Shown: piece after piece, positions 6,960-25,715 of the stretch
Position numbering within the stretch: position 1 is the stretch's first letter
Layout: each line of letters opens with the position of its first letter
Assembly: GCA_945898065.1 (NCBI GenBank)
Contig: CAMDHH010000009.1
Span: forward strand, 1 to 37,497
Origin: Bifidobacterium breve
Lineage (GTDB): Bacteria > Actinomycetota > Actinomycetes > Nanopelagicales > Nanopelagicaceae
Reading direction: 5' to 3'
DNA length: 37,497 nucleotides
Notes under the pieces: generated by a model
What the model saw: the letters and a program-made list of their open reading frames with translations, nothing else
What the model was told of the DNA's origin: nothing
Database searches by the model: none
Translations under genes and position numbers: made by a program

Positions 6960-7717
6960 TTGTTTAGCGCCTTTGCTGCTGGAGAGAATCGGTCTAAGGA
7001 AGATTGAATATGTTTTTGCATGGAGCTCTTTGCACTTTTGTCATCGCCAGTACAAATTGCATGAGCAATCGCTTCATGTTCTTTGATTGTTAATTGGCCT
7101 TGACCAGTTTGGTAATAACGATAAAAAAGATCTTCGACAAATTTATCTTTTGGTTTGTCATCTATGAGGTGGCTTTGAGAGGCTAGAAAGAGGCGAAAAA
7201 GGTGTAAGTGGCAATGAGTACGTTCAAAGGACTCAGTAACAGATTCGTTGCCAGATATACGAGTAATGAGTGAGTGGAATCGGGCGTCATGTTCAATAAA
7301 TGCTTGAACTTGCTGGCTCTCGCTGAGCTTGAGCGCTGTTTTTGCACTCTGCATCTCGGCCTTGAGAGCTGCGATACCGACTGCATCAATTTTTTTGGCA
7401 GATTGCTCTGCAGCCCAAGGCTCTACAAGTAAGCGAAATTGGAATAAGTCGTTGAATTGTTTGACTGTAAGCAATTTTGTTGTCGAATAACCCTTGAGTG
7501 CCTCTTTTGCAATGAGGCCATCGGATTCTAAACGGGCAAGTGCTTCACGAATAGGAGTTTGCGAAACACCTAATTTCACCGCTAACGCGTCAATATTTAC
7601 CTTTGCACCAGGTGCAATTTCATGAGTAAGAATCATCGCCTTGACCATGTCATATGTTTCATCAGAGAGGACAGATCGTCTTGGACCTGCAGCAACTGGT
7701 TGAACTTTGCGTGGCAT
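6956..7717 (-). CDS. GntR-family transcriptional regulator, FCD (FadR-like) subfamily
   Basis: A 253-residue DNA-binding protein. The N-terminal winged helix-turn-helix (about residues 17-80) includes the GntR hallmark LGVSQTPIREALARLESDGL. The C-terminal all-helical FCD domain has the usual metal-site pattern, with HDARFH in the middle and a KEHEAIAHAI stretch near the end. FCD regulators bind sugar acids or organic acids and usually act as repressors released by the ligand. It lies inside the fucose operon, 26 bases after the SDR gene and overlapping the second dehydratase, so autoregulation of the operon is the natural reading. A fucose-pathway acid is the likely effector. The inverted repeat at 9825-9847 is a candidate operator. 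Confidence 0.92.
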   Translation of the reverse strand: MPRKVQPVAAGPRRSVLSDETYDMVKAMILTHEIAPGAKVNIDALAVKLGVSQTPIREALARLESDGLIAKEALKGYSTTKLLTVKQFNDLFQFRLLVEPWAAEQSAKKIDAVGIAALKAEMQSAKTALKLSESQQVQAFIEHDARFHSLITRISGNESVTESFERTHCHLHLFRLFLASQSHLIDDKPKDKFVEDLFYRYYQTGQGQLTIKEHEAIAHAICTGDDKSAKSSMQKHIQSSLDRFSPAAKALNK

Positions 7718-7743: not shown

Positions 7744-8493
7744 TTATTTAGGTAAGCGTAACCCTTGCATGCCACCATCGATAGCGAGTGAAGTTCCAGT
7801 TGTCGATGCCTGCAGGGGATTGGCAAGATAGAGAATTGCGCGTGCTACTTCATCGGCTGAGACAAGTCGACCCATTGGTTGGCGAGCCTCAAGTGCTACG
7901 CGTTGAGCAGCAGGATCTGCAGCTTGTGCAAGCAGTCGTCCTACCCACGGTGTATCGGCTGTTCCAGGATTGACGCAGTTGACTCGAATTCCTTCTTTTA
8001 CAAAATCTGCTGCCATTGCAAGAGTGAGTGAGAGCACTGCTCCTTTACTAGCACTATAGATCGCGCGTAAGGGTAACCCTGCAGTTGCTGCAACTGAGCA
8101 AGTATTTACTATGGCTCCAGATTTACTCATTCGCAAGTATGGAAGAGCGGCTGAAGAAATTCTGCTGATACCTACGACATTGATATTGAGAACATTGAGC
8201 CACTCTGCACTTGTTGTATCTGCGACACTACCAATAGAGCCGATGCCGGCATTATTGATAACAATGTCAATTTTTTTAACCTTTGAAGTTATCTCTTTAA
8301 AAGCAGCATTTACTGAATCATCATTTCCGACATCGCATTTAACAAATGTTGCAACGGATGCCATGGAGCCTTCATTGAGATCTAAGCCAAAGACCTGTGC
8401 GCCTTGTGCTTTGAGCATCGTTGCAACTGCGAGTCCAATTCCAGAGCCTGCACCTGTCACTACTGCATCAAGACCTTTGAAATCTTCGCTCAT
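7744..8493 (-). CDS. Short-chain dehydrogenase, probable 2-keto-3-deoxy-L-fuconate 4-dehydrogenase
   Basis: A 249-residue classical SDR: cofactor motif TGAGSGIG near residue 14, NNAG near 86, and catalytic Ser and YSASK near 135-150, followed by the loop NPGTADTPWVGRLL. That loop and the gene setting match the dehydrogenase that oxidises 2-keto-3-deoxy-L-fuconate to 2,4-diketo-3-deoxy-L-fuconate in the non-phosphorylating fucose route described in Xanthomonas. Its ATG overlaps the fucD stop by 4 bases (8490-8493), so product of FucD and enzyme are made together. An alternative is L-fucose 1-dehydrogenase, since some SDRs of this clade do that; the presence of a separate aldo/keto reductase for that step favours the keto-deoxy role. 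Confidence 0.85.
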   Translation of the reverse strand: MSEDFKGLDAVVTGAGSGIGLAVATMLKAQGAQVFGLDLNEGSMASVATFVKCDVGNDDSVNAAFKEITSKVKKIDIVINNAGIGSIGSVADTTSAEWLNVLNINVVGISRISSAALPYLRMSKSGAIVNTCSVAATAGLPLRAIYSASKGAVLSLTLAMAADFVKEGIRVNCVNPGTADTPWVGRLLAQAADPAAQRVALEARQPMGRLVSADEVARAILYLANPLQASTTGTSLAIDGGMQGLRLPK

Positions 8494-9800
8494 TTCTTCA
8501 CCGCACTCTTCCAGTAGGTGCCGGTTGGGAATAGGAATTCATCGATGCTTGCTTGGAACATTTCTGCTCCAGCACCAGGCTGCGTTGGAGCAATATAAAA
8601 ACCATTGACAACATTTGTTGGAACAACGAAGTGATTGTGCAAGTGATCCACATATTCAACGATGCGCTTTGAATGATGGCCAGTAACTGCAACAGCATCA
8701 AACATGGCCATATGTTGAACCATTTCGCAGAGCCCAACTCCGCCAGCGTGAGGACACACTGGAATACCAAATTTTGCAGCCATCAAGATATTTGCAAGGT
8801 TTTCATTGACCCCTGCAACGCGTGTTGCATCAATTTGCATAACAGAGATTGCATTTGATTGAAGGAGTTGTTTGAATATCATGCGATTACTAGCCATCTC
8901 ACCGGTGGCAACAGGGGTAGGGGCAACTTCACGAGCAATGCGAGCGTGGCCAAGCACATCTTCTGGATGCGTTGGTTCTTCAATCCAGCGCAATTTGAAC
9001 TCGGCGAGGGAGTTGACCCAATCAATTGCTGTATCGACATCCCAGACTTGGTTGGCATCGATTGCAATAGAGAAATCTGGTCCTACTAATTCGCGTACCT
9101 TGGTAAGGCGACGGCGATCATCTTCTTTAGATTTTCCACACTTATATTTAATGAGAGTAAAGCCATCTGCCATGGCTTGCTTTGTAAGGTCGAGCATCTT
9201 CTCATCGCTATATCCAAGCCAGCCAGGAGTAGTTGTGTAGGCAGGTAATCCTTTAGCACGCAAAATCTTTTCATTCTCAGCCTTTGCGCCTTCGCTCTTT
9301 TTCAAGATCGCAAGTGCTTCAGCTGGTGTGATTGCATCGCTGATATATCTAAAATCAATGGCCGCAACAATTTCCTCAGGACTCATGTCGGAGAGAAGTT
9401 TCCACAGTGGAACATTGCGAGATTTTGCAAAAAGATCCCAGAGGGCATTGAGTACTGCGCCAATTCCCATATGGAACACGCCGGTATCTGGTCCAAGCCA
9501 ACGGATCTGACTATCACTTGATAATTCGCGAGTTATCTTTCCAATATTCTTGAATGCCTCATCTATATCCATGCCAGCAAAGCGTTCAACCAACATCTTG
9601 ATTGCCGCAATCTGCACATCGTTTCCGCGCCCAATGGTGAAGACGAGGGAGTGGCCAGATAAGCCTGTTTGATCTGTATCGATTCGAAGGTAGCCCGCTG
9701 AGTAATCGGGGTCTGCGTTCATGGCATCGGAGCCATCGAGCATGGTGGAGGTAGGGAAGCGAACGTCAAAAACATTGAGCGAAGTAATTTTCGCGCCCAT
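8490..9800 (-). CDS. fucD: L-fuconate dehydratase, enolase superfamily
   Basis: Removes water from L-fuconate to give 2-keto-3-deoxy-L-fuconate. The 436-residue protein follows the FucD/ENOSF1 pattern from end to end: LDGSDAMNADPDYS at 21, AYTTTPGWLGYSD at 187, K218-Y-K220, D248-A-N250, W272-I-E274-E, T299-G-E301 and P350-H351-A-G-G. Lys220 and His351 are the two bases and Asp248, Glu274 and Glu301 the Mg ligands; from memory these numbers coincide with those reported for the Xanthomonas enzyme. A strong Shine-Dalgarno (GAGGAGG) lies just before ATG 9800. It is the first gene of the minus-strand operon, and its promoter shares the 108-base gap with the divergent fucose dehydrogenase gene. This is the anchor for reading the region as a fucose locus. 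Confidence 0.94.
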   Translation of the reverse strand: MGAKITSLNVFDVRFPTSTMLDGSDAMNADPDYSAGYLRIDTDQTGLSGHSLVFTIGRGNDVQIAAIKMLVERFAGMDIDEAFKNIGKITRELSSDSQIRWLGPDTGVFHMGIGAVLNALWDLFAKSRNVPLWKLLSDMSPEEIVAAIDFRYISDAITPAEALAILKKSEGAKAENEKILRAKGLPAYTTTPGWLGYSDEKMLDLTKQAMADGFTLIKYKCGKSKEDDRRRLTKVRELVGPDFSIAIDANQVWDVDTAIDWVNSLAEFKLRWIEEPTHPEDVLGHARIAREVAPTPVATGEMASNRMIFKQLLQSNAISVMQIDATRVAGVNENLANILMAAKFGIPVCPHAGGVGLCEMVQHMAMFDAVAVTGHHSKRIVEYVDHLHNHFVVPTNVVNGFYIAPTQPGAGAEMFQASIDEFLFPTGTYWKSAVKK

Positions 9801-9908: not shown

Positions 9909-10868
9909 ATGGCTCATAACACCAAAGTTGAAATCGCACCTGGCGTAGAGATTTCTATGATGGGAATTGGTGCTGCAACATTTGGTGGATTATTTACTTC
10001 GATGTCAGATAGCGATGCTGTCGATGTCGTCAAGAGTGCATTTGCCCATGGAATAAATTATTTTGATACTGCGCCGCATTATGGAAAAGGAACATCAGAG
10101 CGCAGATTAGGCGCTCTGCTCAATGCATATCCACGAAACTCTTACATTCTTTCATCAAAGATTGGACGTCTGCTTGTTCCAACTACACAAGGTGCTGACC
10201 CTGACTTTTTAGATGCAGATCCAACGGTGGAGCGATTATTTGATTTTTCAGCTCAAGGTGTTGAGCGCTCGCTCAAAGATAGTTTGGAGCGCTTAGGCCT
10301 AGATAGTATCGATATTGTTTTTGTGCATGATCCAGATAATCACGCCGATGTCGCAATCAAAGAAGCATATCCAGCACTCGCGAAAATGCGTGATCAAGGA
10401 ATTGTCAAGGCAATCGGTATTGGAATGAATCAAAGTGCAATTCCAACTCGATTTGTGAAAGAGACCGATATTGACATTGTGCTCCTTGCTGGGCGCTACA
10501 CACTCTTAGATCAAAGTGGCGCGCAAGATCTTTTGCCAGCAGCCCTTGCTAAGGGAGTTTCAGTTTTAGCAGCAGGTGTCTACAACTCGGGAATCCTTGC
10601 AAATCCAGTCAAGGGCGCAACCTATGACTATGCCCCAGCTAGCGATGAAATTCTCGCCCGAGCAAAGATGATCTCTGATTTCTTGCGAGAACAAGGTGTC
10701 TCGCTATCGCGCGCAGCTCTTCAATATCCACTTCGCCACCCAGCAGTAAAAGCACTTTTAGTCGGAAGCAGAAGCAAGGCCGAAGTTGATGCCAATGTTG
10801 CAGCCTTCAACGATGTGGTTCCAGATTCTGTTTGGAATGCACTAGATGAATTACTCGCGCGAAAGTAA
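9909..10868 (+). CDS. Aldo/keto reductase, probable L-fucose 1-dehydrogenase
   Basis: A 319-residue TIM-barrel oxidoreductase with the AKR tetrad Asp53 and Tyr58 (YFDTAPHYG), Lys84 (SSKIG) and His140 (FVHDPD). The segments LAGRYTLLDQ and AAGVYNSGILA are characteristic of the aldose 1-dehydrogenase/pyridoxal 4-dehydrogenase branch, which includes the L-fucose dehydrogenase of the Xanthomonas pathway. It would oxidise L-fucose with NAD(P) to L-fucono-lactone, the substrate of the lactonase three genes later. It opens the plus-strand operon, with an AGAGGA Shine-Dalgarno 7 bases before ATG. Related D-arabinose or L-galactose activity is common in this branch, so exact sugar preference is not certain. 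Confidence 0.87.
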   Translation: MAHNTKVEIAPGVEISMMGIGAATFGGLFTSMSDSDAVDVVKSAFAHGINYFDTAPHYGKGTSERRLGALLNAYPRNSYILSSKIGRLLVPTTQGADPDFLDADPTVERLFDFSAQGVERSLKDSLERLGLDSIDIVFVHDPDNHADVAIKEAYPALAKMRDQGIVKAIGIGMNQSAIPTRFVKETDIDIVLLAGRYTLLDQSGAQDLLPAALAKGVSVLAAGVYNSGILANPVKGATYDYAPASDEILARAKMISDFLREQGVSLSRAALQYPLRHPAVKALLVGSRSKAEVDANVAAFNDVVPDSVWNALDELLARK

Positions 10869-10877
10869 GGTGTATCC

Positions 10878-11804
10878 ATGACATTGAATCCGCAAGCGAA
10901 AACACTTTTAGATCGCATGAAAGCTCTTAATCTTCCAGAGGCATGGGACCTCGGTGCCAAGGCTCGATATGGCGGCCATGAAGAGGTAGATATGGCAGGT
11001 CCTATTGAGGGCGGCGTGCGCATAGATCACCGTTTTATTTCTTCTGCAACAGCAGATCTTCCGATTCGCATTTACACACCAGAGGCCCCAGGACCTTTCA
11101 ACGCATTTATTTATTACCACGGTGGTGGCTGGGTTTTTGGTCATATTGATCGATATGACTCGCAACTAGTCTCACTCGCTAAGAGAACTAATTCAGTGGT
11201 TGTCTCGGTCAATTACCAAAAATCACCTGAGCACAAATTTCCAATTCCACATGATGATTGTTATGAAACTCTTGAATGGGTTGCAGCCAATGGGGCTTAC
11301 CTCAATATCAATGTAAAGAAGATTGGTGTTGGTGGAGATAGCGCCGGAGGTAATTTGGCATCAGGTGTTGCACTTCGTGCTCGTGATGAAGGAAAAATCA
11401 AACTTGCCTATCAATTACTAATCTATCCAGCCAATGGATTAGATTTTGAAGCACCCTCATATAAAAATAATGCAGAGGGATACGGACTATCAAGCCGTGG
11501 AATGATCTGGTTCTGGGAACAATACTTGAATGAAAAAGATAAGAATAATCCTTATGCAGTACCGCACACAGCAAAATCTTTGGCAGGTCTTGCACCAGTT
11601 GTAATCATCACGGCCGAATATGACGTGCTTCGCGATGATGGATTGCTCTATGCCAAGAAACTCAAAGAGGCTGGTAACTATGTCGTCCATAAAGATTATG
11701 AGGGACATATTCACGGTTTCTTTAGCCACGGGAAATATGTAGATGAGGGTATTGCTGTTCGTGATTTCTTTGCCGCCGAGATAAATAAAATCCTTGCGAG
11801 CTAA
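10878..11804 (+). CDS. Alpha/beta hydrolase, hormone-sensitive lipase (HSL) type esterase
   Basis: A 308-residue cytoplasmic hydrolase with the oxyanion HGGGW (81-85), nucleophile Ser155 in GGDSAGG, Asp249 in AEYDVLRDDG and His279 in GHIHGFF, i.e. a complete catalytic triad in the usual order. No signal peptide. It sits 9 bases after the fucose dehydrogenase gene and 3 bases before the RraA-like gene, so it belongs to the operon. It has no counterpart in the textbook fucose pathway. Removing O-acetyl groups from imported fucosyl sugars, or acting as an additional lactonase, would both fit the context, but the sequence itself only shows an ester hydrolase. Confidence 0.85.
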   Translation: MTLNPQAKTLLDRMKALNLPEAWDLGAKARYGGHEEVDMAGPIEGGVRIDHRFISSATADLPIRIYTPEAPGPFNAFIYYHGGGWVFGHIDRYDSQLVSLAKRTNSVVVSVNYQKSPEHKFPIPHDDCYETLEWVAANGAYLNINVKKIGVGGDSAGGNLASGVALRARDEGKIKLAYQLLIYPANGLDFEAPSYKNNAEGYGLSSRGMIWFWEQYLNEKDKNNPYAVPHTAKSLAGLAPVVIITAEYDVLRDDGLLYAKKLKEAGNYVVHKDYEGHIHGFFSHGKYVDEGIAVRDFFAAEINKILAS

Positions 11805-13380: not shown

Positions 13381-13704
13381 ATGAAAAGAGTAGGTTCTGT
13401 TATTGGTATTGCACCAGGTGCTCGCGCAGAATATGAGCGCATTCACGCTGCTGTATGGCCCGAAATTTTGGCTCAGATCAGCAAAAGCCATATTCAAAAT
13501 TATTCAATTTATCGCCACGGTGATCTTCTCTTCTCATATTTTGAATATGTAGGAAATGATTACGAAGGCGATATGAAAGCGATGGGCGATGACCCAAAGA
13601 CTCAAGAGTGGTGGTCGCTAACAATTCCGATGCAAGCACCGATGGAAGATCGCGCCGAAGGTGAATGGTGGAAAACGCTACCCGAGGTGTTCCATACAGA
13701 TTGA
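13381..13704 (+). CDS. L-rhamnose mutarotase-family protein, probable L-fucose mutarotase
   Basis: A 107-residue dimeric alpha/beta barrel protein of the RhaM family (PF05336, COG3254). Recognisable parts are EYERIHAAVWPEI, then NYSIYRHGDLLFSYFEYVG, and the Trp-rich tail EWWSLTIPMQ followed by EGEWW. It would speed up alpha/beta interconversion of the free sugar so that the dehydrogenase is not limited by spontaneous mutarotation. Members of this family next to fucose genes act on L-fucose. It is the last gene of the plus-strand operon. Its 3' end overlaps the convergent FAH-family gene by 27 bases. GGAGAG lies 6 bases before ATG. Confidence 0.87.
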   Translation: MKRVGSVIGIAPGARAEYERIHAAVWPEILAQISKSHIQNYSIYRHGDLLFSYFEYVGNDYEGDMKAMGDDPKTQEWWSLTIPMQAPMEDRAEGEWWKTLPEVFHTD

Positions 13705-14526
13705 TTCAATTTCGCCAATACCTTCGATACCAGTCTTGACTACTTGACCAGGCTCGAGATATTTTGTTGGATTCAATCCCATTGCAACACCAAATGGTGT
13801 TCCTGTATTTATAACATCACCAGGGAAGAGTTCCATGAACTGGCTGATGTACCAAACGATGTGATCGATACCAAAGAGAAGATCACTTGTTCGTGAATCT
13901 TGACGCATCTCTCCATCTACGCTGCACCATAGGCGCAAGTCATGAGGATTTATTTCATCTCCCGTGACAATACATGGCCCGATTGGATTGAATGTTGGGA
14001 ATGATTTTCCTTTCATCCATTGTCCGGAACGTTCAATTTGCCAATGGCGCTCACTCACATCTTGAGAGATTGTGTAACCTAAAATATGTTGCGCCGCATC
14101 TTTCGTATCCTTCAAATACAGCGCGCGCTTTCCAATAACAATTGCAAGCTCTACTTCGTAATCTGTTTTCAAACTTCCAGGTGGGATAACGATTGGGTCA
14201 TTGGGGCCAACGACGCTATCGGGGGCTTTCATAAAAATAATTGGCTCCGGTGGAGTCGCCGCATTTGTCTCTTTGATATGCAATAAATAATTGAGTCCCA
14301 CGCAAATAACTTTCGTAGGGTGGGCAATGGGTGAACCTATTCGTAACGATTTGTTATCAACTCGCGGTAGCGCGGAGAGATTTGTCGACGCTACTTTCTG
14401 GTAACCCCCGTTACTGAGCGTTTCACGGTCCCAATCGGTAATAAGAGAGTCAACAAATATTGCATCCTCGCCAACCAAAACTGCTGGACGTTCTTGACCA
14501 ATTTCTCCCAATCGAGCTATACGCAT
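13678..14526 (-). CDS. Fumarylacetoacetate hydrolase-family enzyme, probable 2,4-diketo-3-deoxy-L-fuconate hydrolase
   Basis: A 282-residue FAH-fold C-C hydrolase. The family core KVICVGLNYLLHIKE (from residue 72), metal ligands Glu124/Glu126 (TDYEVELAIVIG) and Asp156 (SQDVSERHWQ), and the GQWMKGKSF loop are present. In the Xanthomonas-type route this family splits 2,4-diketo-3-deoxy-L-fuconate into pyruvate and L-lactate, the final step here. I chose ATG 14526 because a GAGAAAGG Shine-Dalgarno lies 8 bases upstream and MRIARLGEIG is the usual family N-terminus; an in-frame start at 14568 would add 14 unlikely residues. It is transcribed away from the ABC importer and against the mutarotase gene, so it has its own promoter in the 14527-14698 gap. 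Confidence 0.86.
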   Translation of the reverse strand: MRIARLGEIGQERPAVLVGEDAIFVDSLITDWDRETLSNGGYQKVASTNLSALPRVDNKSLRIGSPIAHPTKVICVGLNYLLHIKETNAATPPEPIIFMKAPDSVVGPNDPIVIPPGSLKTDYEVELAIVIGKRALYLKDTKDAAQHILGYTISQDVSERHWQIERSGQWMKGKSFPTFNPIGPCIVTGDEINPHDLRLWCSVDGEMRQDSRTSDLLFGIDHIVWYISQFMELFPGDVINTGTPFGVAMGLNPTKYLEPGQVVKTGIEGIGEIESICMEHLG

Positions 14527-14698
14527 CGAAAAACCTTTCTCACGAATTATCCAATATCCTATAGACAAATCCCCAAAAAACCTCCAAGATTTCCCCTATG
14601 CAGTTCCAAGCCCTGGAGCTGTTCTTCTGCGCTATGGAAAAACCTACTCGTGGGGTTTTCGATAGCGCCGAGGTTACATTCGTAAAGAAGGAGTTTGA
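14527..14698. promoter_or_regulatory. Divergent promoter region between FAH hydrolase and ABC importer
   Basis: A 172-base gap serving two outward-facing transcripts. It holds AT-rich -10-like sequence (CCTATAGAC near 14570 on plus; GATAAT on minus), a Shine-Dalgarno AAGAAGGAG before the binding-protein gene, and a possible hairpin AAAACC (14639-14644) with GGTTTT (14654-14659). A 34-codon open frame from ATG 14598 ends in a TGA overlapping the binding-protein ATG (14699-14702) but has no Shine-Dalgarno, so I do not call it a gene. No copy of the 9825-9847 palindrome is visible here. Confidence 0.5.
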
Positions 14699-16075
14699 AT
14701 GAAGTCATCGTTCCGAGTCTCCGGAAAGTCTGTTGTTGCACTTAGCGCAATTTCATCGGCTTTTGCATTAGTACTTAGTGGTCTCTCGATTACCCCAGCG
14801 AGTGCAGCCCTAGGGACAGAACCGGTAACACTCACAGTTCAGCATGAAACAACTGGAGATCGTCCAGAAGAAGAATGGGCCGCAGTTGGCAAGGCATTCG
14901 TCAAGAAGTATCCAAATGTCACAATCAAATATTCACCAATTACAAATGAAGCAAAGGGTGGACCAAACCTTCAGGTTCTCTCATCCGACGGTGCACCAGA
15001 TATCGCACTGCTTCCTTTGAACTCAAATGTGTATACACAGATGGTTAAGAACAAGGCACTTGTTCCACTCAACGGAATCTTTGCAGCAGATAACACTGTT
15101 GCTCGCATTGGTCCACCAGCTGCTGCTCTCAAGCAAGCAGATGGTAAGTACTACGCAACACCTCACGTTGTTGTGTATTACAACGTTCTTTGGACAAATC
15201 CAGATGCAATCGCGAAATCGAAGGCTAAGATTCCTGGAAGCGGACATTTCGCATCAGTTGCACAACTTGTTGCATTTGGTAAGGCCTGCAAAAAGGCTGG
15301 TTATGCCGGTCTAGCAATTGGTGGAAAGACAAACTTCCAAGCTTCTTGGATGTTTGACTCAATGATGCCAACAGCTGTTTCTGCTAAGGCACTCAACAAC
15401 TACATCAATAGCTACAAGCCAGATGTTCCTGTTACAGCAAAGTGGACAGATCCAGGAGTCCTCAAGACTCTTGATGCACTTGGTGCAATTGCTAAGGGTG
15501 GCGTTTATCAAAACGGTTACCTTGGTATGGATCTAGATCAAGCAACTGCTTACTTCACAGCCGGTAAGTCATGCATGCTCCTTGGTGGAACATGGATGCC
15601 AGGTGGTGCATTTGATTCAGAGACAAAGAAGGGTGCAATGAAGTTCACACCAGGACTTGCTGTTTTGCCTTCTGTTGTAGCTGGAAAGAAAGCAACATAC
15701 ACACCTTATTACGGTGATGCATATGGAGTTCCTACAAAGTCAAAGAACCAAGAGTGGGCACTTGAACTTCTTCGCTACTTCATGAGCGATGAAGGACAAA
15801 GAATTGGTGCACTAGAAGCTGCTGGAAACCTTCCAGTGGTTACAACAATTCCACAATCCCTATATACAAAGGTTCCACAAGGCGTGAAGGATGTTCTTGC
15901 CCTTGTTGCTGCTTACGGATCACAATCAGGATGGACTTCTGAAGTACCTGGTGCATATGGCCAGACCTTCATCAATCCATTGATCCAGAAGTTGCAAGAA
16001 GGAAAGACAACATCTGCAGAAATTGCTAAGGCTCAACAGGCCAAGCTCGAAGATGTACGCAAGAACGGCCTCTAA
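14699..16075 (+). CDS. Sugar ABC transporter substrate-binding protein, secreted
   Basis: A 458-residue extracellular solute-binding protein of the maltose/oligosaccharide (family 1) type. Residues 1-36 form a signal peptide: basic start, hydrophobic core ALSAISSAFALVLSGLS, and a signal-peptidase I site ITPASA/A. There is no Cys at the junction, so this is not a lipoprotein, unlike most Gram-positive binding proteins. The mature part starts with VTLTVQHETTGDR and includes the APDIALLP and MLLGGTWMPGG segments usual for the family. Lys is written mostly AAG, a bias suggesting high expression. It opens the importer/fucosidase operon. Fucosylated oligosaccharide is the inferred ligand from the five GH29 genes downstream. 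Confidence 0.92.
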   Translation: MKSSFRVSGKSVVALSAISSAFALVLSGLSITPASAALGTEPVTLTVQHETTGDRPEEEWAAVGKAFVKKYPNVTIKYSPITNEAKGGPNLQVLSSDGAPDIALLPLNSNVYTQMVKNKALVPLNGIFAADNTVARIGPPAAALKQADGKYYATPHVVVYYNVLWTNPDAIAKSKAKIPGSGHFASVAQLVAFGKACKKAGYAGLAIGGKTNFQASWMFDSMMPTAVSAKALNNYINSYKPDVPVTAKWTDPGVLKTLDALGAIAKGGVYQNGYLGMDLDQATAYFTAGKSCMLLGGTWMPGGAFDSETKKGAMKFTPGLAVLPSVVAGKKATYTPYYGDAYGVPTKSKNQEWALELLRYFMSDEGQRIGALEAAGNLPVVTTIPQSLYTKVPQGVKDVLALVAAYGSQSGWTSEVPGAYGQTFINPLIQKLQEGKTTSAEIAKAQQAKLEDVRKNGL

Positions 16076-17955: not shown

Positions 17956-19326
17956 ATGTCCGAAGGAACGATATTTGATTTAGAGAAGTTATCTTCTCGA
18001 ATGAATGACTACTATCCACTTATCAATGGGCATGAAAAGCGGTGCAAAAACTGGTTCACAGGTGCCGGCCTCGGAATGTTTATTCACTGGGATCACACAA
18101 GTGAGCAAGGAATTGAAATCTCTTGGCCATTGGTGGGGGGAGTTTTTTCACTACCTGGTGGAAAAGATGTCACTGTTGAGCAGTATCACTCCACTGCAGC
18201 AACATTTAATCCAACTCAGTGGGATCCCAAAGAGATTGCAAAGCTAGCTAAAGATGCAGGAATGGCATACATAGTTTTCACATCAAAGCATCACAACGGT
18301 TGGGCTACATGGCCCTCAAAGGTTGGAAATCGAAATATAACTTCATCCCCATATGGAAAAAACGGTGGAGATATTTTGCGCACTTACGTTGATGCAGTGC
18401 GCGCGGAAGGGCTCAAAGTTGGAGTGTATTACTCCCTTTCTGACTGGGGACATGAAGATTATTTAGCCTGGAAAGATGAATATCTCCCTTACGTATTTGG
18501 TGATAGCGCACCAATGGGAACGCCAGAACAATGGCAGAGATATCGCAAATATCTAAAAGATCAACTCACTGAAATTCTCACAGGTTACGGCCAAATCGAT
18601 ATGTTGTGGTTTGACGGTGCGTGGGAGCGCAGTGATGAGGATTGGAATTCAATAGATATTGGTAACCATATTCGTTCCCTTTCTCCAAATACGTTGATCA
18701 ATGATCGACTCTTCACTCAAGGTGACTTCCGCACACCAGAACAATGGATTCCTGCGCAACCACTTCCTGAACCATGGGAATGTTGCATGACTATGAATTA
18801 CTCATGGGCATACGTTCCATCAGATACAGCATTCAAATCTCCTTATGAAATCTTGCGTACATTGATTGAAGTTGTATCTCGCGGCGGAAATCTTTTGCTC
18901 AACATTGGACCTCGCGAAGATGGATCACTCGTGCCAGAAGAGCGCGACATCATGGTCGAGCTTGCTAAGTGGATGAAGACAAATAAAGAAAGTGTTGTTG
19001 GAGTAACTCCAGGACTTGAGCCATGGCAGTTCTATGGACCAAGTACACAAAATGGAAACCTTGTATATCTACATCAATTTGCAATGCCAACCGAATCAGT
19101 GGTTGCTCGCGGCATCAAGGTGGCACGAGTGAAGTCAGTAAAAATCCTTGGTAGCAATGAAGAACTCAAATTTACTCGCCGCACCGCTATCAATGACATT
19201 TCGATCAAAGATCCTGATGGCGAAATCATTATTGATGTGCGTGGGAAGAATCTTTCAGGTCTCATTCCTGTCATAGTTCTAGATCTCAGCGCTAATCCTG
19301 CTGAAGTAGCACTTCGGAATTGGTAA
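17956..19326 (+). CDS. Alpha-L-fucosidase GH29, type A copy 1 (cytoplasmic)
   Basis: Hydrolyses terminal alpha-L-fucosyl residues by a retaining mechanism. The 456-residue protein has the GH29 marks F42-I-H44-W-D, K111-H-H-N-G-W, and the nucleophile Asp220 in MLWFDGAW. A conserved PWECCMTMNYSWAY block lies near 273 and VVSRGGNLLLNIGP near 307. No signal peptide, so it acts on imported sugars. A GAGGT Shine-Dalgarno precedes ATG 17956; the longer frame from 17920 overlaps the permease and is unlikely. The sequence differs from the type B copies by longer loops around 140-200, and matches the copy at 22005 closely. All key residues are present. Confidence 0.93.
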   Translation: MSEGTIFDLEKLSSRMNDYYPLINGHEKRCKNWFTGAGLGMFIHWDHTSEQGIEISWPLVGGVFSLPGGKDVTVEQYHSTAATFNPTQWDPKEIAKLAKDAGMAYIVFTSKHHNGWATWPSKVGNRNITSSPYGKNGGDILRTYVDAVRAEGLKVGVYYSLSDWGHEDYLAWKDEYLPYVFGDSAPMGTPEQWQRYRKYLKDQLTEILTGYGQIDMLWFDGAWERSDEDWNSIDIGNHIRSLSPNTLINDRLFTQGDFRTPEQWIPAQPLPEPWECCMTMNYSWAYVPSDTAFKSPYEILRTLIEVVSRGGNLLLNIGPREDGSLVPEERDIMVELAKWMKTNKESVVGVTPGLEPWQFYGPSTQNGNLVYLHQFAMPTESVVARGIKVARVKSVKILGSNEELKFTRRTAINDISIKDPDGEIIIDVRGKNLSGLIPVIVLDLSANPAEVALRNW

Positions 19327-20648
19327 TGAACGTTTTCAATCGCTTTGAGCGTGAAGTTCCCGAGTGGTTTCTCGATGCCAAGTTGGGTTTCATGGTCTCG
19401 TGGGGGGCATTCTCTGTTCCAGCATGGGGTGAACCTATTGGTGAACTTGGAACAATTGAAGACTGGAAAGAATGGTTTAGGCACAACCCATATGCAGAGT
19501 GGTATTACAACACTATTCGCATTGAAGGCTCTCCTGCTCGTGAATATCATAAAAAGAATTTCAATGATTGCGACTATGACGATCTTTTGGATATGTGGAA
19601 GGCAGAAAAATTTCAACCCGATGAGTGGGCTAAGTTATTTGCGTACGCAGGCGCGCAGTACATAGTTCCACTTTCTAAACACCATGATGGGATCACGCTC
19701 TGGGATGCTCCCGGGACGGGCACACGTAACACTGTGCATCGCGGACCAAAGCGTGATCTCATCGGTGATATTGCAACAGCTGTTCGCAAAGCTGGAATTC
19801 GATTTGCTGTCTATTACTCAGGCGGACTCGACTGGGAAGTTACAAAAACTCTGCCAGCGATATCAGATAATGATCAGCATAAAGGATTGCAACGCCCGGT
19901 AGATGCCGCATATTCCATGTATGCCTATAAGCATGTAATTGATTTGATTGATCGCTATAAGCCCGATGTTCTTTGGAATGATATTGAATGGCCAGATTTT
20001 TCAAAGCGCGAAGGTCAATATTCACTCGCGGCTCTCTTTGATTATTACTACAAGGCTGTTCCTCACGGCGTTGTCAATGATCGTTGGGGTAAAGAGACGC
20101 ACTCAGATTATGAAACAAGTGAATATCAATATATGGCGGATAGTGAAAATGCTGATGCCTGGGAAAATTGTCGCGGAATCGGACTCTCATTTGGTTACAA
20201 CCAAGTTGAATCAGAGCAGCACTCACTCAATACCGAGAGCGCACTTCGTCATTTCTTAGACATTGTTTCTCGCGGAGGCAATTTCTTACTCAATGTTGGC
20301 CCAACTGCATCAGGTGAAATTCCAGAAATTCAAAAGAAAGTTCTTATGGGACTAGGCGATTGGATGGCAATTAATTCTGGCGCAGTTTATGCAACTCGCG
20401 CAATCAAGGAAATTCCTGCAACCGATGCTCCATGGGTTCGTTGGGCAAAGAAAGGTAACTCAGTTTTTGCATATATTGATGCCATTGGAAACGTTGAATT
20501 TAGCGCTCCAGCAAGCCTGGTCAATGCTAAGAAAGCCACAATATTTGGTGGTGCAGCGATCACAGCCACTCGCAATGGCGACAAAATTTCAATGACAATT
20601 CCGGCTCCAAAAGTACCGGGACCAACTGTTATTGAATTTTCACACTAA
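19326..20648 (+). CDS. GH29 alpha-L-fucosidase-like protein, type B copy 1, active-site His replaced
   Basis: A 440-residue GH29 protein coupled to the previous gene by a TAATG overlap (ATG 19326). It keeps WYYNTIRIEGSP, K118-H-H-D-G, the nucleophile Asp219 in LWNDIEWPDF, and the RGGNFLLNVGPTASG block. However, the conserved F-I-H-W-G near the N-terminus reads M-V-S25-W-G, so the His that in GH29 structures contacts the fucose ring is Ser. The two other type B copies in this array have His there. Reduced or altered activity, or a changed sugar specificity, is possible. No signal peptide. Otherwise a full-length, intact reading frame. Confidence 0.9.
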   Translation: MNVFNRFEREVPEWFLDAKLGFMVSWGAFSVPAWGEPIGELGTIEDWKEWFRHNPYAEWYYNTIRIEGSPAREYHKKNFNDCDYDDLLDMWKAEKFQPDEWAKLFAYAGAQYIVPLSKHHDGITLWDAPGTGTRNTVHRGPKRDLIGDIATAVRKAGIRFAVYYSGGLDWEVTKTLPAISDNDQHKGLQRPVDAAYSMYAYKHVIDLIDRYKPDVLWNDIEWPDFSKREGQYSLAALFDYYYKAVPHGVVNDRWGKETHSDYETSEYQYMADSENADAWENCRGIGLSFGYNQVESEQHSLNTESALRHFLDIVSRGGNFLLNVGPTASGEIPEIQKKVLMGLGDWMAINSGAVYATRAIKEIPATDAPWVRWAKKGNSVFAYIDAIGNVEFSAPASLVNAKKATIFGGAAITATRNGDKISMTIPAPKVPGPTVIEFSH

Positions 20649-20669
20649 AGCATTACTAAGGAGATAACC

Positions 20670-21983
20670 ATGGAATTCAAAAACTTCGAACGCTTCAATC
20701 GCCCAGTGCCGACATGGTTCTCTGATGCCAAGTTTGGAATATTCATTCACTGGGGCGCTTATTCAGTGCCTGCATGGGCGGAGCCAACTGGTGAGCTAGG
20801 TGCAGTTGATGACAGCGTATGGATGGCACATAATCCATATGCAGAGTGGTACTACAACACAATTCGCATTGAAGGATCCCCCGCACAAAAGCACCACCAA
20901 GAAATCCATGGTGGCGCACCATATGACGACTTCCTTGATCAATGGAAGGCAAGTAAGTTCAATCCAGATGATTGGGCAGCACTCTTTGCTAAAGCTGGCG
21001 CACAATATGTAATTCCAACAACTAAGCACCATGACGGAATTACTTTGTGGGATGCACCAGGAACAGGAACACGTAACACTGTTGCTCGAGGTCCAAAGCG
21101 TGACCTTGTTGCTGCAATTGGCGACGCTGTTCGCAAAGCCGGAATCAAGTTTGGTGTCTACTACTCAGGTGGTTTGGACTGGAGCGTTGATAACTTCCCT
21201 CCAATGACAATTGGTGATCACGTACGAGGATTTCGTCCAAGCGATGCTGCCTATGCAATGTATTGCTATGAGCACATCACAGACCTAATCAATCGTTACA
21301 AGCCAGATGTTCTCTGGGATGATATTGAATACCCAGACTTCGCAAAGCGCGAAGGTGCATATTCACTCGCAGCAATCTTTGACCACTATTACAAGGCTGT
21401 TCCACAGGGTGTTATCAATGACCGCTGGGGAGTACCTCACTCTGATTACAAGACAAGTGAGTACCAACATTCACTCGATAACGAGAGTGGGGCAGCATGG
21501 GAAAACTGTCGCGGTATAGGACTCTCATTTGGTTACAACCAAATTGAAGATGAGAAGCACTACATGAGCATTAATGCTGCTCAACATCACCTCATCGACA
21601 TTGTCTCTCGAGGAGGAAATCTTCTTCTCAACGTTGGACCAACAGCCGATGGTGAAATTCCTGCCTTCCAGCGCAAAGTACTAGAAGGAATTGGCGCATG
21701 GATTGCAGTAAATAAAGAGGCAATTTACGCTTCCCGCGTCGCCGCAGATGTGAAGCCATCTGATTCACCTTGGGTTCGCTGGACTGCTAATGGCAAGAAG
21801 CGTTACGCAATCATTGATGCAACAGGTTCAGTGGAATTTGATGCACCAGAGAGCGCCGTTGATATCAAGAGCGCAACAGTTCTTGGTGGTGGAGCAATTG
21901 CAGTAACACGCAGCGGTTCAAAGATCTCAATGACTATTGCAGCGCCAAAGGTCGAAGGACCAACTGTCGTAGCTTTCAACTAG
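20670..21983 (+). CDS. Alpha-L-fucosidase GH29, type B copy 2 (cytoplasmic)
   Basis: A 437-residue GH29 enzyme with complete motifs: F24-G-I-F-I-H27-W-G, K119-H-H-D-G, nucleophile Asp218 in LWDDIEYPDF, and RGGNLLLNVGPTADG. It has the best Shine-Dalgarno of the set (AAGGAG, 7 bases before ATG) and Lys written mostly AAG, like the binding-protein gene, which suggests it is the most strongly expressed fucosidase. It lacks a signal peptide. The C-terminal 60 residues form the small beta domain usual for short GH29 enzymes. It stands 21 bases after copy B1 and 21 bases before type A copy 2. Confidence 0.93.
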   Translation: MEFKNFERFNRPVPTWFSDAKFGIFIHWGAYSVPAWAEPTGELGAVDDSVWMAHNPYAEWYYNTIRIEGSPAQKHHQEIHGGAPYDDFLDQWKASKFNPDDWAALFAKAGAQYVIPTTKHHDGITLWDAPGTGTRNTVARGPKRDLVAAIGDAVRKAGIKFGVYYSGGLDWSVDNFPPMTIGDHVRGFRPSDAAYAMYCYEHITDLINRYKPDVLWDDIEYPDFAKREGAYSLAAIFDHYYKAVPQGVINDRWGVPHSDYKTSEYQHSLDNESGAAWENCRGIGLSFGYNQIEDEKHYMSINAAQHHLIDIVSRGGNLLLNVGPTADGEIPAFQRKVLEGIGAWIAVNKEAIYASRVAADVKPSDSPWVRWTANGKKRYAIIDATGSVEFDAPESAVDIKSATVLGGGAIAVTRSGSKISMTIAAPKVEGPTVVAFN

Positions 21984-22004
21984 TCATAAAAGATTGATGT
22001 TGTG

Positions 22005-23381
22005 ATGGCCACTGAAACTAACGTTTTCGATAAGGAAGCGTTAGCTCCGAGGTTGAATGAATTTCATCCTCTTATCAGTGGTCATCAACAACGTTGTTCA
22101 GAGTGGTTTACAGGGGCTGGGTTAGGGCTTTTCATTTGCCTTGATCACGCCAGCCAACAAGGCATTGAAATGTCATGGCCGATGCTAGGTGATGTTAATT
22201 TTGCGCTACCACTCGGAGGCTTAGTTACTGTTGACCAATATCGATCAACTGAGAGCACGTTCAATCCAACATCGTGGAACCCAAAAGATTTCTTACAAAA
22301 AGCAAAAGATGCAGGGTGTAAGTACGCCGTATTTACTGCAAAGCATCACAGTGGATGGGCTATCTGGCCATCACAATATGGTGACCGAAATATAACTTCG
22401 TCACCTTTTCATTCAACTGGTCGTGATATTTTGCGTGAATATGTTGATGCCGCACGTGAAGTCGGAATAAAGGTCGGAATCTATTACTCATTATCTGACT
22501 GGGGCCATAAGGATTATCTAGCGTGGAAAGATGAGTACCGCCCATATATTTTTGGAACTAGTCCACCCATTGGAGATCAAGATCAGTGGGAGAACTTTCG
22601 CCAGTACACCAAAGATCAATTGACTGAATTGTTGACTGAGTATGGCCCAGTAGATCTCTTGTGGTTCGACGGTGCGTGGGAGCGAAGTGATGAGACCTGG
22701 AACTCGAAAGACTTCGGAGACCATATTCGTTCAATCTCACCAAATACGCTAATCAACGACAGACTTTTTACTCAAGGGGATTATCGAACTCCCGAGCAGT
22801 GGATTCCAGCAAAGCCACTCAATGAACCATGGGAATGCTGCATGACCATCAATTACTCATGGGCATATGTTCCAAGTGATAAGACATATAAATCTACCTA
22901 TGAAATCTTGCGCACACTCATTGAAGTTGTCTCTCGTGGTGGAAATCTATTGCTCAATGTTGGACCAAAGCCAGATGGCACTTTGGCATCTGAAGAGGCG
23001 CAAACATTAGATGATTTAGCTGTGTGGATGAAAGTGAATAAAGAGAGTATTGAAAACGTTACCCCAGGTCTAGAAGATTGGCAGTATTACGGACCTTCGA
23101 CACAGCGTGGAGATATTGTTTATTTGCATAATTTTGCACTTCCTCAAGAGAGTGTTGTTGTTCGTGGCGTAAAGGTTGCTCGATTGAAATCGGCCAAAAT
23201 GTTAGGAAGTAGCGAAGAACTGACATTTACCCGCAGGACTGCAATTCATGATGCAGAGATGCCTGATCCCGATGGAGAAATAATTATCGATGTGCGCGGT
23301 AAAAAAGTCTCTGGACTCATGCCAATACTTATTTTAGATTTTAGTGGCGATCCGTCATCCATAGAGATTCGTAACTGGTAA
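22005..23381 (+). CDS. GH29 alpha-L-fucosidase-like protein, type A copy 2, active-site His and Trp replaced
   Basis: A 458-residue paralogue of the gene at 17956, similar along the whole length, with KHHSGW (113-118), nucleophile Asp222 in LLWFDGAWERSDE, and PWECCMTINYSWAY. The conserved F-I-H-W-D is here F-I-C45-L46-D: both His and Trp are exchanged (TGCCTT in place of CACTGG), which takes several base changes and so is not a single sequencing error. These residues line the fucose pocket in GH29 structures. ATG 22005 chosen over GTG 22002; the Shine-Dalgarno is weak. The frame is intact, so the gene appears maintained despite the change. Confidence 0.9.
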   Translation: MATETNVFDKEALAPRLNEFHPLISGHQQRCSEWFTGAGLGLFICLDHASQQGIEMSWPMLGDVNFALPLGGLVTVDQYRSTESTFNPTSWNPKDFLQKAKDAGCKYAVFTAKHHSGWAIWPSQYGDRNITSSPFHSTGRDILREYVDAAREVGIKVGIYYSLSDWGHKDYLAWKDEYRPYIFGTSPPIGDQDQWENFRQYTKDQLTELLTEYGPVDLLWFDGAWERSDETWNSKDFGDHIRSISPNTLINDRLFTQGDYRTPEQWIPAKPLNEPWECCMTINYSWAYVPSDKTYKSTYEILRTLIEVVSRGGNLLLNVGPKPDGTLASEEAQTLDDLAVWMKVNKESIENVTPGLEDWQYYGPSTQRGDIVYLHNFALPQESVVVRGVKVARLKSAKMLGSSEELTFTRRTAIHDAEMPDPDGEIIIDVRGKKVSGLMPILILDFSGDPSSIEIRNW

Positions 23382-23405
23382 AACCACAACTAAAGGGAGA
23401 GAAAA

Positions 23406-24719
23406 ATGGCAGATGCAGTGAACTGGGATCGCTTCAAACGCGATGTTCCACAGTGGTACACCGAAGCAAAGTTTGGAATCTTTATTCACTGGGGTGCTTA
23501 TTCAGTTCCTGCATGGGGTGAACCAATTGGCGAGCTTGGAACCATGGAAGCTAAGAAATGGTTTCCACATAATCCATATGCCGAGTGGTATTTCAACACT
23601 ATTCGTATTGAGGGCTCACCTGCGCAAGAACATCATAAGAAAGTTCATGGCAACGCACCGTATGACGATTTCTTAGATCGATGGAAGGCAGAAAAATTCA
23701 ATCCTGATCAATGGGCTGAACTCTTTGCTTACTCTGGCGCGCAATATGTTTTACCAACGACTAAGCACCACGACGGAATCGCACTCTGGCAAGCACCAGG
23801 AACGGGAACTCGAAACACAGTTAATCGTGGGCCAAAGCGTGACCTTGTTGGAGATATCGCAACTGCTGTTCGCAAAAAAGGACTGCACTTCGGTGTTTAC
23901 TACTCTGGCGGTTTGGACTGGAGCGTTACTAATTTGCCTCCACACAATGACGAATATGAATTAGCGCGTCCATCAGATGCTGCATATTCAATGTATTGCT
24001 ACGAGCACGTAGTCGACATTATTGATCGATATAAGCCAGAAGTGATATTCAACGATATCAACTGGCCAGATTTCTCAAAGCGTGAAGGCGAATATTCATT
24101 GCCAGCACTCTTTGATTATTACTACTCACATGTACCAACGGGTGTGGTCAATGATCGTTGGGGAATTCCACACTGGGATTACAAAACGAGTGAATACAAG
24201 ATGAACCTGCACGTTGAAGATGGGGGAGTCTGGGAGAACAACCGTGGCGTTGGTTATTCATTTGGATATAACCAACTCGAAACTGATGAGCACTACCTTA
24301 ACATCAGCGGATTACTCCATCACCTGCTCGACATTGTCTCTCGTGGAGGAAATCTTCTTCTCAATGTTGGCCCAACGGCATCAGGTGAAATTCCTGAGCT
24401 TCAACAAAAAGTATTGCGTCAAATGGGGGATTGGATGAAGATTAATTCCAAGGCTATTTACGCTTCCAATGCTGTTCCAGAATTCAAAGCATCTGATGCG
24501 CCATGGATTCGCTGGACAGGTGTCGGCAAAGAAATATTTGCTCACATCGAATCAACTGGAAAAACTACTTTCGAAGTTCCAGAGTCACTCGTTGATGATT
24601 CAAGTGCACATTTCCTCAGTGGAGAAAAGGCAACTATTACTCGTAGTGGAAATAGCGTCACTATTGATATCGATGGAAAGCACGCTCCAATGGCAGTGCT
24701 CTCCTTCAAGCGTCGCTAA
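23406..24719 (+). CDS. Alpha-L-fucosidase GH29, type B copy 3 (cytoplasmic)
   Basis: A 437-residue GH29 protein with F-I-H28-W-G, K120-H-H-D-G and RGGNLLLNVGPTASG. The nucleophile is Asp217, but its context reads V-I-F-N-D-I-N-W instead of the L-W-N-D of the sister copies, a mild change next to the active site. A good Shine-Dalgarno (AAAGGGAGAG) precedes ATG. It is the last gene of the 10-kb importer/fucosidase operon and ends 18 bases before a convergent aldo/keto reductase pseudogene, with no clear terminator. No signal peptide. It is closest in sequence to copies B1 and B2. Confidence 0.92.
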   Translation: MADAVNWDRFKRDVPQWYTEAKFGIFIHWGAYSVPAWGEPIGELGTMEAKKWFPHNPYAEWYFNTIRIEGSPAQEHHKKVHGNAPYDDFLDRWKAEKFNPDQWAELFAYSGAQYVLPTTKHHDGIALWQAPGTGTRNTVNRGPKRDLVGDIATAVRKKGLHFGVYYSGGLDWSVTNLPPHNDEYELARPSDAAYSMYCYEHVVDIIDRYKPEVIFNDINWPDFSKREGEYSLPALFDYYYSHVPTGVVNDRWGIPHWDYKTSEYKMNLHVEDGGVWENNRGVGYSFGYNQLETDEHYLNISGLLHHLLDIVSRGGNLLLNVGPTASGEIPELQQKVLRQMGDWMKINSKAIYASNAVPEFKASDAPWIRWTGVGKEIFAHIESTGKTTFEVPESLVDDSSAHFLSGEKATITRSGNSVTIDIDGKHAPMAVLSFKRR

Positions 24720-24737: not shown

Positions 24738-25715
24738 TCAATCTCTAAAGGGTGGCTGGTTTAGTAATTCTTCGTGAAGAGGTCCTAGATCAGCTGAGAG
24801 CGAGGCATTGAGCCCCGCCAATTCATCTGCGCTCAATGTGATGCTGACACCCTTGAAGGAATCCAATATTGACTCTGGACGCGTTGCACCAGGAATTGGA
24901 ATTTCTACTGGTGAATTAGCAAGGTGCCACGCAATTGTTATTGCATATGCAGAAACACCTTTTGCTTTAGCTAGTTCATCAAATGCGTTGTATTTTCCAG
25001 TTCCAACAGCGCCAGGGTTGCCAATGCCGCCCATAGGTGACCATGGCAAGAATGCGATGCCGTTTTCTTTACAGATCTCTAATACTTCTGCACCGTGACG
25101 GTAGCGAGGACTCCATTCATTTTGTACTGAAATGAGCCCACCTTGCGCTGGTGTTCCACCAATTTTGATTGCTCGGCGAAGTTGTTCTGCATTGACATTA
25201 CTTACGCCAACGTTTTGAACAACACCATGGGCTTTAAGTTTCATGACGTTTTCGAATTGAGTCTCATAGGCCATTGTGTGATTGAGGCGGTGGTGTTGCC
25301 ACAATTGAATCTTCTCTACGCCTAATTTTCCAGCTGATGCTTCGACTGCGCGGTAGAGGTAATGCTCTTCAGCGTTTCGACCGCCAGTACCAAACCAATC
25401 ATTTCCTGGTCCACGTGTGATTCCACCTTTAGTTGCGATTACAACTTTGCTTTTCGCATCCGCTGAACCATTCCACGTTCTAAATGCTTCACCCACTAGC
25501 TGTTCATTGTGACCCATTGTGTTCCACGTTGGAGAGTAGATATCTGCACTATCAAGAAGCGTGATGCCAGCATCTAGTGCGGCATGGATCACGGAAATTG
25601 CTTAGTCTCTCTTATCGAGAATCCAAGCCTTCTCTGGTGGGAATCCAGACATTGGCATACAGCCAAGACCAATTGCTGAAACTTGATATGGACCGAGTGT
25701 TCTTGTATTTGTCAT
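24738..25715 (-). pseudogene. Aldo/keto reductase interrupted by an in-frame TAA
   Basis: Reading back from ATG 25715 gives MTNTRTLGPYQVSAIGLGCM, a perfect AKR N-terminus, then continues PMSGFPPEKAWILDKRD to a TAA at codon 38 (bases 25604-25602). The same frame resumes at once with AISVIHAALDAGITLLDSADIY and runs to the stop at 24738, so one C-to-T change of a CAA Gln codon explains the break. The rest keeps the AKR Asp/Tyr (DSADIY), Lys (ATKGG) and His (LWQHH). A GTG at 25592 could restart translation but has no clear Shine-Dalgarno and would lack the first barrel strand. Function before damage is unknown; it is not a copy of the fucose dehydrogenase at 9909. Confidence 0.83.

Follow-up and report, generated by a model that had tools for sequence, protein, structure and literature searches.

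Several described systems lie close to the locus reported here. In glycoside hydrolase family 29 (GH29), the closest include the alpha-L-fucosidase of Thermotoga maritima (TmFuc; 1hl8, 1odu), a GH29-A enzyme, and isoenzyme 1 of Paenibacillus thiaminolyticus (6gn6). The family also holds enzymes for sugars other than fucose, namely the exo-alpha-L-galactosidase BpGH29 of Bacteroides plebeius (7ljj, 7snk) and two alpha-L-glucosidases of Cecembia lonarensis, ClAgl29A (7xsf) and ClAgl29B (7xsg and 7xsh, also with L-glucose bound, according to the structure titles). The review PMC10154630 calls the latter two alpha-glucosidases and cites a paper under the title Discovery of alpha-L-glucosidase. The non-phosphorylating L-fucose pathway, with its L-fuconate dehydratase (1yey), is a further point of reference. 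Here we analyse an array of five consecutive GH29 genes downstream of a sugar importer in a stretch of 37,497 nucleotides (the window), which runs from base 1 of contig 9 (CAMDHH010000009.1) of assembly GCA_945898065.1, a draft genome of 1.39 Mb in 77 contigs with an estimated completeness of 85%, labelled Bifidobacterium breve and placed in the Nanopelagicaceae by GTDB lineage. In this array, one member of each of two distant GH29 types has replaced a first-shell histidine of the active site in all of its orthologues covered.

The five genes, and the codons at which three of them depart from the usual pocket according to the residue alignment, are as follows.

17956 to 19326, plus strand: A1, GH29 protein of 456 residues with the conserved histidine (FIHWD); PF01120 E 4e-79
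19326 to 20648, plus strand: B1, GH29 protein of 440 residues with Ser at the H34 position; PF01120 E 7e-84, 1hl8 E 4e-110
19398 to 19400, plus strand: codon of B1 Ser25, at the H34 position
20670 to 21983, plus strand: B2, GH29 protein of 437 residues with canonical first-shell residues; PF01120 E 3.5e-89, 1hl8 E 1e-114
22005 to 23381, plus strand: A2, GH29 protein of 458 residues with Cys at the H34 position and Leu at the W35 position; PF01120 E 6e-78
22137 to 22139, plus strand: codon of A2 Cys45, at the H34 position
23406 to 24719, plus strand: B3, GH29 protein of 437 residues with Phe at the W222 position; PF01120 E 4e-89, 1hl8 E 2e-122
24048 to 24050, plus strand: codon of B3 Phe215, at the W222 position

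All five open reading frames (ORFs) are intact, begin with ATG and lie on the same strand in the order A1-B1-B2-A2-B3, and each protein exceeds the PF01120 cut-off over the catalytic domain (E 6e-78 to 3.5e-89). These results confirm the preliminary description of five full-length, co-directional GH29 genes of two types, ordered A-B-B-A-B, behind a sugar importer. No other PF01120 match occurs in the assembly, at its estimated completeness of 85%. Protein identity is 68% between A1 and A2, 63-65% among B1, B2 and B3, and 25-32% between the types (partial alignments), and paralogues of one type are 69-73% identical in aligned DNA. B1-B3 align with TmFuc over most of their length, and among solved structures A1 is closest to 6gn6 (E 1e-73), with the same catalytic positions. 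For A1, B1 and B2 the matches to 6gn6 or 1hl8 are far stronger than those to 3ues, which speaks against placement in GH29-B, as judged from these matches rather than from a formal subfamily model. The A-types carry a GxExSWPLVGG-like insertion after strand 1 (about residues 45-65) that 6gn6 lacks; among the 16 alignment rows shown, the only other carrier is L083. A stretch of 42 nucleotides is 88% identical between A2 (22927-22968) and B3 (24334-24375) despite their distant types, and reflects either gene conversion or a conserved motif.

Permease 2 of the importer is separated from A1 by 10 nucleotides, and the GH29 genes follow one another with a 1-nucleotide overlap and then gaps of 21, 21 and 24 nucleotides. 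Given these short distances, the binding protein, the two permeases and the five GH29 genes probably form one operon and would be transcribed together. None of the five enzymes has a signal-like N-terminus: in a simple 12-residue hydropathy check, as distinct from a signal-peptide predictor, the highest value within the first 45 residues was 0.97-1.60 and fell on barrel strand 1, against 2.16 for the signal-like N-terminus of the binding protein. Together with the importer genes directly upstream and the adjoining L-fucose pathway genes, this upholds the earlier proposal that import comes before hydrolysis.

The catalytic residues, numbered here as in TmFuc, are uniform across the array. The equivalent of the nucleophile D224 is kept in all five proteins and in every orthologue covering the site, as are those of the acid/base E266 and of H128, H129, Y171 and R254. 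The nucleophile motifs first proposed hold in outline (LWNDIEWPDF in B1, LWDDIEYPDF in B2, IFNDINWPDF in B3). The acid/base Glu of A1 and A2 is assigned by alignment only, and the review PMC10154630 notes that acid/base residues of GH29-A align poorly. The B copies retain E66 and W67. W222 is kept in every copy except B3, which has Phe in nine of nine sequences; F222 is one of four B3-specific positions.

The picture differs at H34, a first-shell residue listed as conserved across GH29-A and GH29-B in Table 1 of PMC7711723. In E1_10125, according to PMC7872956, His61 hydrogen-bonds fucose while Phe59 and Trp219 form a pocket for the C6 methyl group; we equated these residues with H34, F32 and W222 by motif. 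A histidine-fucose contact is also reported for other GH29 enzymes, T. maritima included, in PMC11108932. H34 is present in A1 (8/8), in B2 (all nine sequences covering the site, of ten) and in B3 (all eight covering it, of nine). In the B3 of genome G054, which belongs to another genus, the ORF found starts downstream of the site, yet the preceding in-frame DNA reads FIHWG. H34 is replaced by Ser in eight of eight B1 sequences and by Cys in eight of eight A2 sequences, where W35 is also replaced by Leu (8/8). The strand-1 motif thus reads MVSWG in B1 against FIHWG in B2 and B3, and the FIHWD-like motif ascribed to both A copies by the preliminary description stands for the copy at 17956 and fails for that at 22005, which reads FICLD. 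The equivalents of D224, E266, H128, H129, Y171, W222 and R254 are unchanged in both B1 and A2. Nine positions are fixed in B1 (8/8) and absent from 20 comparators, among them M32, F38, L125 and S126. Among the actinobacterial relatives examined, 34 of 35 keep H34. The sole exception, a distant GH29 protein (L071), carries Leu in place of H34 and Phe in place of H128 and represents a further naturally occurring form of the fucose pocket.

The array is rare and its order is conserved. Any GH29 gene was found in 10 of 296 genomes of the order, the window's own included, and in six of these ten (the window's genome, G167, G168, G188, G231 and G239) the order A1-B1-B2-A2-B3 lies on one contig; in G231 the contig ends within B3. 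The order is split across two contigs in G229, B2-A2-B3 stands at a contig start in G211, and G054 carries A1-B1-B2-B3 without A2. The remaining genome, G180, has B2 only; there (L042, 5259-9899) the gene adjoins an aldo/keto reductase and a two-part dehydratase of the altronate/galactarate type, and this genome may use another sugar-acid route. Of eight named public metagenome-assembled genome (MAG) records, seven are array genomes or near-identical contigs with B2 and the eighth carries B3. A DNA pattern covering eight residues of the B1 motif matched one of 396 genomes of the phylum, the window's own; the pattern is codon-strict and would miss the G054 orthologue too, so this result carries little weight. 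Since the order recurs in other genomes and the paralogues share only 69-73% of their aligned DNA, misassembly cannot have made the copies, and the coverage-doubling artefact that the preliminary description had named as a danger is ruled out.

Purifying selection acts on each copy. The ratio of nonsynonymous to synonymous substitution rates (dN/dS), computed with our own Nei-Gojobori script, was 0.03-0.10 in all 18 computable comparisons of the five genes with up to four relatives; one further comparison gave no computable value, and those with G168 and G054 approach saturation of dS. In trees, each of B1, B2 and B3 groups with its G054 orthologue in a single clade; the B copies would therefore be older than the divergence of the two genera, unless they were transferred together. 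Their branching order is left without a single solution (B1+B3 support 56/13, and 90/59 in a larger tree; p-values of the approximately unbiased (AU) test, p-AU, 0.18 for B1+B2 and 0.49 for B2+B3), and the AU test does not settle if A2 arose before or after the separation from G054 (p-AU 0.25). The suggestion that an A-B pair was duplicated and a further B copy added is therefore neither shown nor excluded. Paralogue identities, trees and dN/dS together rule out recent tandem duplication for dosage. All five are old enzymes, each maintained separately, and not dosage copies. Each is an orthologous line of its own, with residues fixed at active-site positions and low dN/dS; to the extent that sequences can tell, functional division is well supported and the five likely differ in function.

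Comparison with the described enzymes bears on what is divided. Relative to TmFuc, B1 lacks H34 and F32 and B3 lacks W222, and the genes here form a five-gene array with an importer; relative to 6gn6, A2 lacks H34. ClAgl29A and ClAgl29B have likewise replaced H34, as B1 and A2 have, so the first-shell histidine seen in A1, B2 and B3 is a conserved feature that family membership does not require. In a structural alignment of the predicted B1 model with known folds, B1 is 27-28% identical to the ClAgl29 enzymes, and ClAgl29A and B1 are both changed at positions 38, 125 and 126, though to different residues. BpGH29 keeps H34. L-galactose and L-fucose have the same configuration at C4, and L-glucose has the opposite one. 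The Asp of the glucosidases and the His of the galactosidase, very few cases in all, suggest that the H34 position may read C4. The W222F change of B3 alters the C6-methyl pocket. With the loss of the -1-subsite His in B1 and A2 and the pocket change in B3, some of the division may lie in the glycon, in addition to linkage or neighbouring sugar. The preliminary description had five paralogues dividing one sugar by linkage or by neighbouring sugar; the functional division stands, and the one sugar is no longer secure.

The genes upstream give the array its setting, together with one gene that adjoins it downstream.

6956 to 7717, minus strand: GntR/FCD-type regulator, possible regulator of the locus; PF00392 and PF07729
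7744 to 8493, minus strand: short-chain dehydrogenase (SDR; Pfam, no specific match), candidate for oxidation of 2-keto-3-deoxy-L-fuconate, the step being a presumed one
8490 to 9800, minus strand: L-fuconate dehydratase; 1yey (L-fuconate dehydratase) E 2e-167
9909 to 10868, plus strand: aldo/keto reductase, candidate L-fucose dehydrogenase; 8scc (L-galactose dehydrogenase) E 1e-40
10878 to 11804, plus strand: alpha/beta hydrolase, possible esterase of the locus; PF07859
12501 to 13367, plus strand: amidohydrolase, candidate L-fucono-1,5-lactonase; NF052480 E 5e-41, below cut-off, and 4dlf E 5e-25
13678 to 14568, minus strand: FAH-type hydrolase, candidate for the last pathway step; PF01557, and NF053535 E 2e-74, below cut-off
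14699 to 16075, plus strand: sugar-binding protein of the importer; PF01547
16147 to 17109, plus strand: importer permease 1; PF00528
17106 to 17945, plus strand: importer permease 2; PF00528
24738 to 25592, minus strand: aldo/keto reductase adjoining the array

One binding protein and two permeases correspond to those parts of a carbohydrate ATP-binding cassette (ABC) importer. No ATPase gene lies among the ORFs of the cluster, and a MalK-type domain is present on another contig. The binding protein was found in six of the 296 genomes at E <= 1e-60, and all six carry the array. Its signal-like N-terminus has no cysteine within the first 45 residues; binding proteins of Gram-positive bacteria are mostly lipoproteins. 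We take the catabolic genes to encode a route that converts L-fucose to pyruvate and lactate without phosphorylation. The dehydratase is the only strong assignment of the set. The fucose dehydrogenase, the lactonase, the second dehydrogenase and the diketo-acid hydrolase have one candidate each, of which the lactonase and the hydrolase score below the NCBIfam cut-offs; for the FAH-type hydrolase the best model, scoring below its equivalog cut-off, is named for the hydrolase of the L-rhamnonate route. An RraA-like protein (Pfam) also lies upstream of the array. The dehydratase and its candidate partners share one locus; what differs from the known pathway is that importer genes and five genes for intracellular GH29 enzymes accompany them. 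The aldo/keto reductase at 24738-25592 has 284 residues against 325-342 in the orthologues found, and an in-frame stop upstream of its listed start points to a broken gene or an error in the draft sequence.

From gene order and co-occurrence, the dedicated importer would take fucose-containing oligosaccharides into the cytoplasm, where the five GH29 proteins, as retaining exo-alpha-L-glycosidases by family and catalytic positions, would remove terminal L-sugars one by one. The L-fucose released would pass through the adjacent non-phosphorylating pathway to pyruvate and lactate. B2 and A1 would serve plain fucose, and B1 and A2 an L-sugar end that is substituted at O4 or differs at C4. That the copies split the work by sugar unit, or by substitution at C4 or C6, as well as by linkage has in our judgement nearly an even chance. 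The narrower proposal, that B1, A2 or both have gained a new glycon specificity (for a C4-different alpha-L-sugar or for an O4-substituted L-fucose, for example acetylated or methylated) through loss of the same His in two distant types, with the array reading more than one L-sugar end, is tentative and somewhat unlikely. The alpha/beta hydrolase of the locus could strip esters, which would fit O-acylated fucose.

A number of points weigh against such a glycon specificity. The analogy with the glucosidases is partial and drawn from a single organism's two enzymes: where ClAgl29A and ClAgl29B carry Asp in place of H34, B1 has Ser and A2 Cys, so the arrangement of the ClAgl29 type is absent, and B1 keeps as Glu the residue E66, to which an Asp is aligned in ClAgl29A. 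BpGH29 differs from TmFuc at 125 and 126 despite keeping H34, so those changes are not diagnostic, and A2 has no B1-like change at 125. In A1 and A2 the insertion makes E66 and W67 unalignable, which leaves the A-type pocket uncertain even before the His loss, and the predicted models of B1 and A2 are weak around the active site (mean predicted local distance difference test score, pLDDT, 66.5 and 49.0). The H34 variants might be merely slower fucosidases. Since the pathway genes serve fucose, most of the sugar set free would be expected to be fucose. The binding protein was not found in the array genomes G167, G211 and G054, in which the contigs end inside or before the importer genes.

A division by linkage or aglycone only, with all five enzymes acting on plain terminal L-fucose and the H34 and W222 changes merely tuning the pocket, is a serious possibility, if short of probable. 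It is favoured by the adjacent L-fucose genes, by the catalytic residues kept in all five copies and by the differences in linkage between GH29 clusters described in PMC11189522, and it has to contend with substitutions fixed in B1 and A2 on the glycon (-1) side, at a position also replaced in the two GH29 enzymes known to use L-glucose. We consider acceptance of a different or substituted L-sugar by B1 and A2 about as likely as linkage-only division. It is improbable that B1 and A2 are catalytically impaired partners that complete or regulate the sites of B2/B3 or A1 in mixed oligomers. Each type does have one copy without H34 beside copies that bear it, but all eight B1 and all eight A2 sequences retain the nucleophile, the acid/base and the remaining first-shell residues that could be aligned. 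Most pseudo-enzymes do not keep such catalytic and first-shell residues. The model for such a partnership is 6gn6, reported as a hexamer with active-site complementation in a title cited by PMC10154630.

Engineered GH29 enzymes can be shifted toward transglycosylation by weakening contacts at the -1 subsite (PMC13342150), and B1 and A2 might on that ground be mainly transfucosidases that rearrange imported oligosaccharides. We hold this very unlikely: no physiological need for it is evident, and in Table 1 of PMC7711723 the H36N/I variants of BiAfcB, at the equivalent of H34, are not marked as improving transglycosylation. Least likely of all is that the genes are dosage copies, recent duplicates or an artefact of assembly. 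Tandem, co-directional copies of one family would invite that explanation, but against it stand paralogue identities of 63-68%, B copies older than the split from the other genus, a gene order shared with other genomes and low dN/dS for every copy.

The genomes themselves give some indication of substrate and habitat. Use of sulfated fucans through sulfatases of the organism's own was rejected, as no sulfatase match occurs in eight of nine array genomes, drafts that are 63-95% complete and in which absence is not proof. The ninth, G168, has a match on a small contig (L043, G168:C54, 3684-10426) that also carries a TonB receptor plug and a GH29 protein of 603 residues, probably contamination from a Gram-negative bacterium. 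A GH2 match is present in all nine, nearly full-length in six, so use of homofucans only cannot be inferred. One MAG record title names Lac Pavin and further isolate codes look like lake samples, from which we infer a streamlined freshwater actinobacterium. Two public MAG contigs with parts of the array (L044, L051) are titled Bifidobacterium breve, a label that is probably wrong.

Intracellular GH29 enzymes beside importers are a known kind. Literature searches on such arrays and on the role of H34, of incomplete coverage, gave no paper recognised as a description of this one, and what sets it apart is that each type has a copy in which H34 is consistently lost. Discussion of GH29 specificity centres mostly on linkage, and the array is a natural case for how these enzymes may change the sugar that they accept: two distant types in one operon-like array have each replaced the same first-shell His in one of their members, and the change is maintained under strong purifying selection. 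For annotators, it is a reason not to call every GH29 gene a plain fucosidase. For the lineage, the array would point to oligosaccharides containing fucose or modified L-sugars as a resource available to streamlined lake bacteria.

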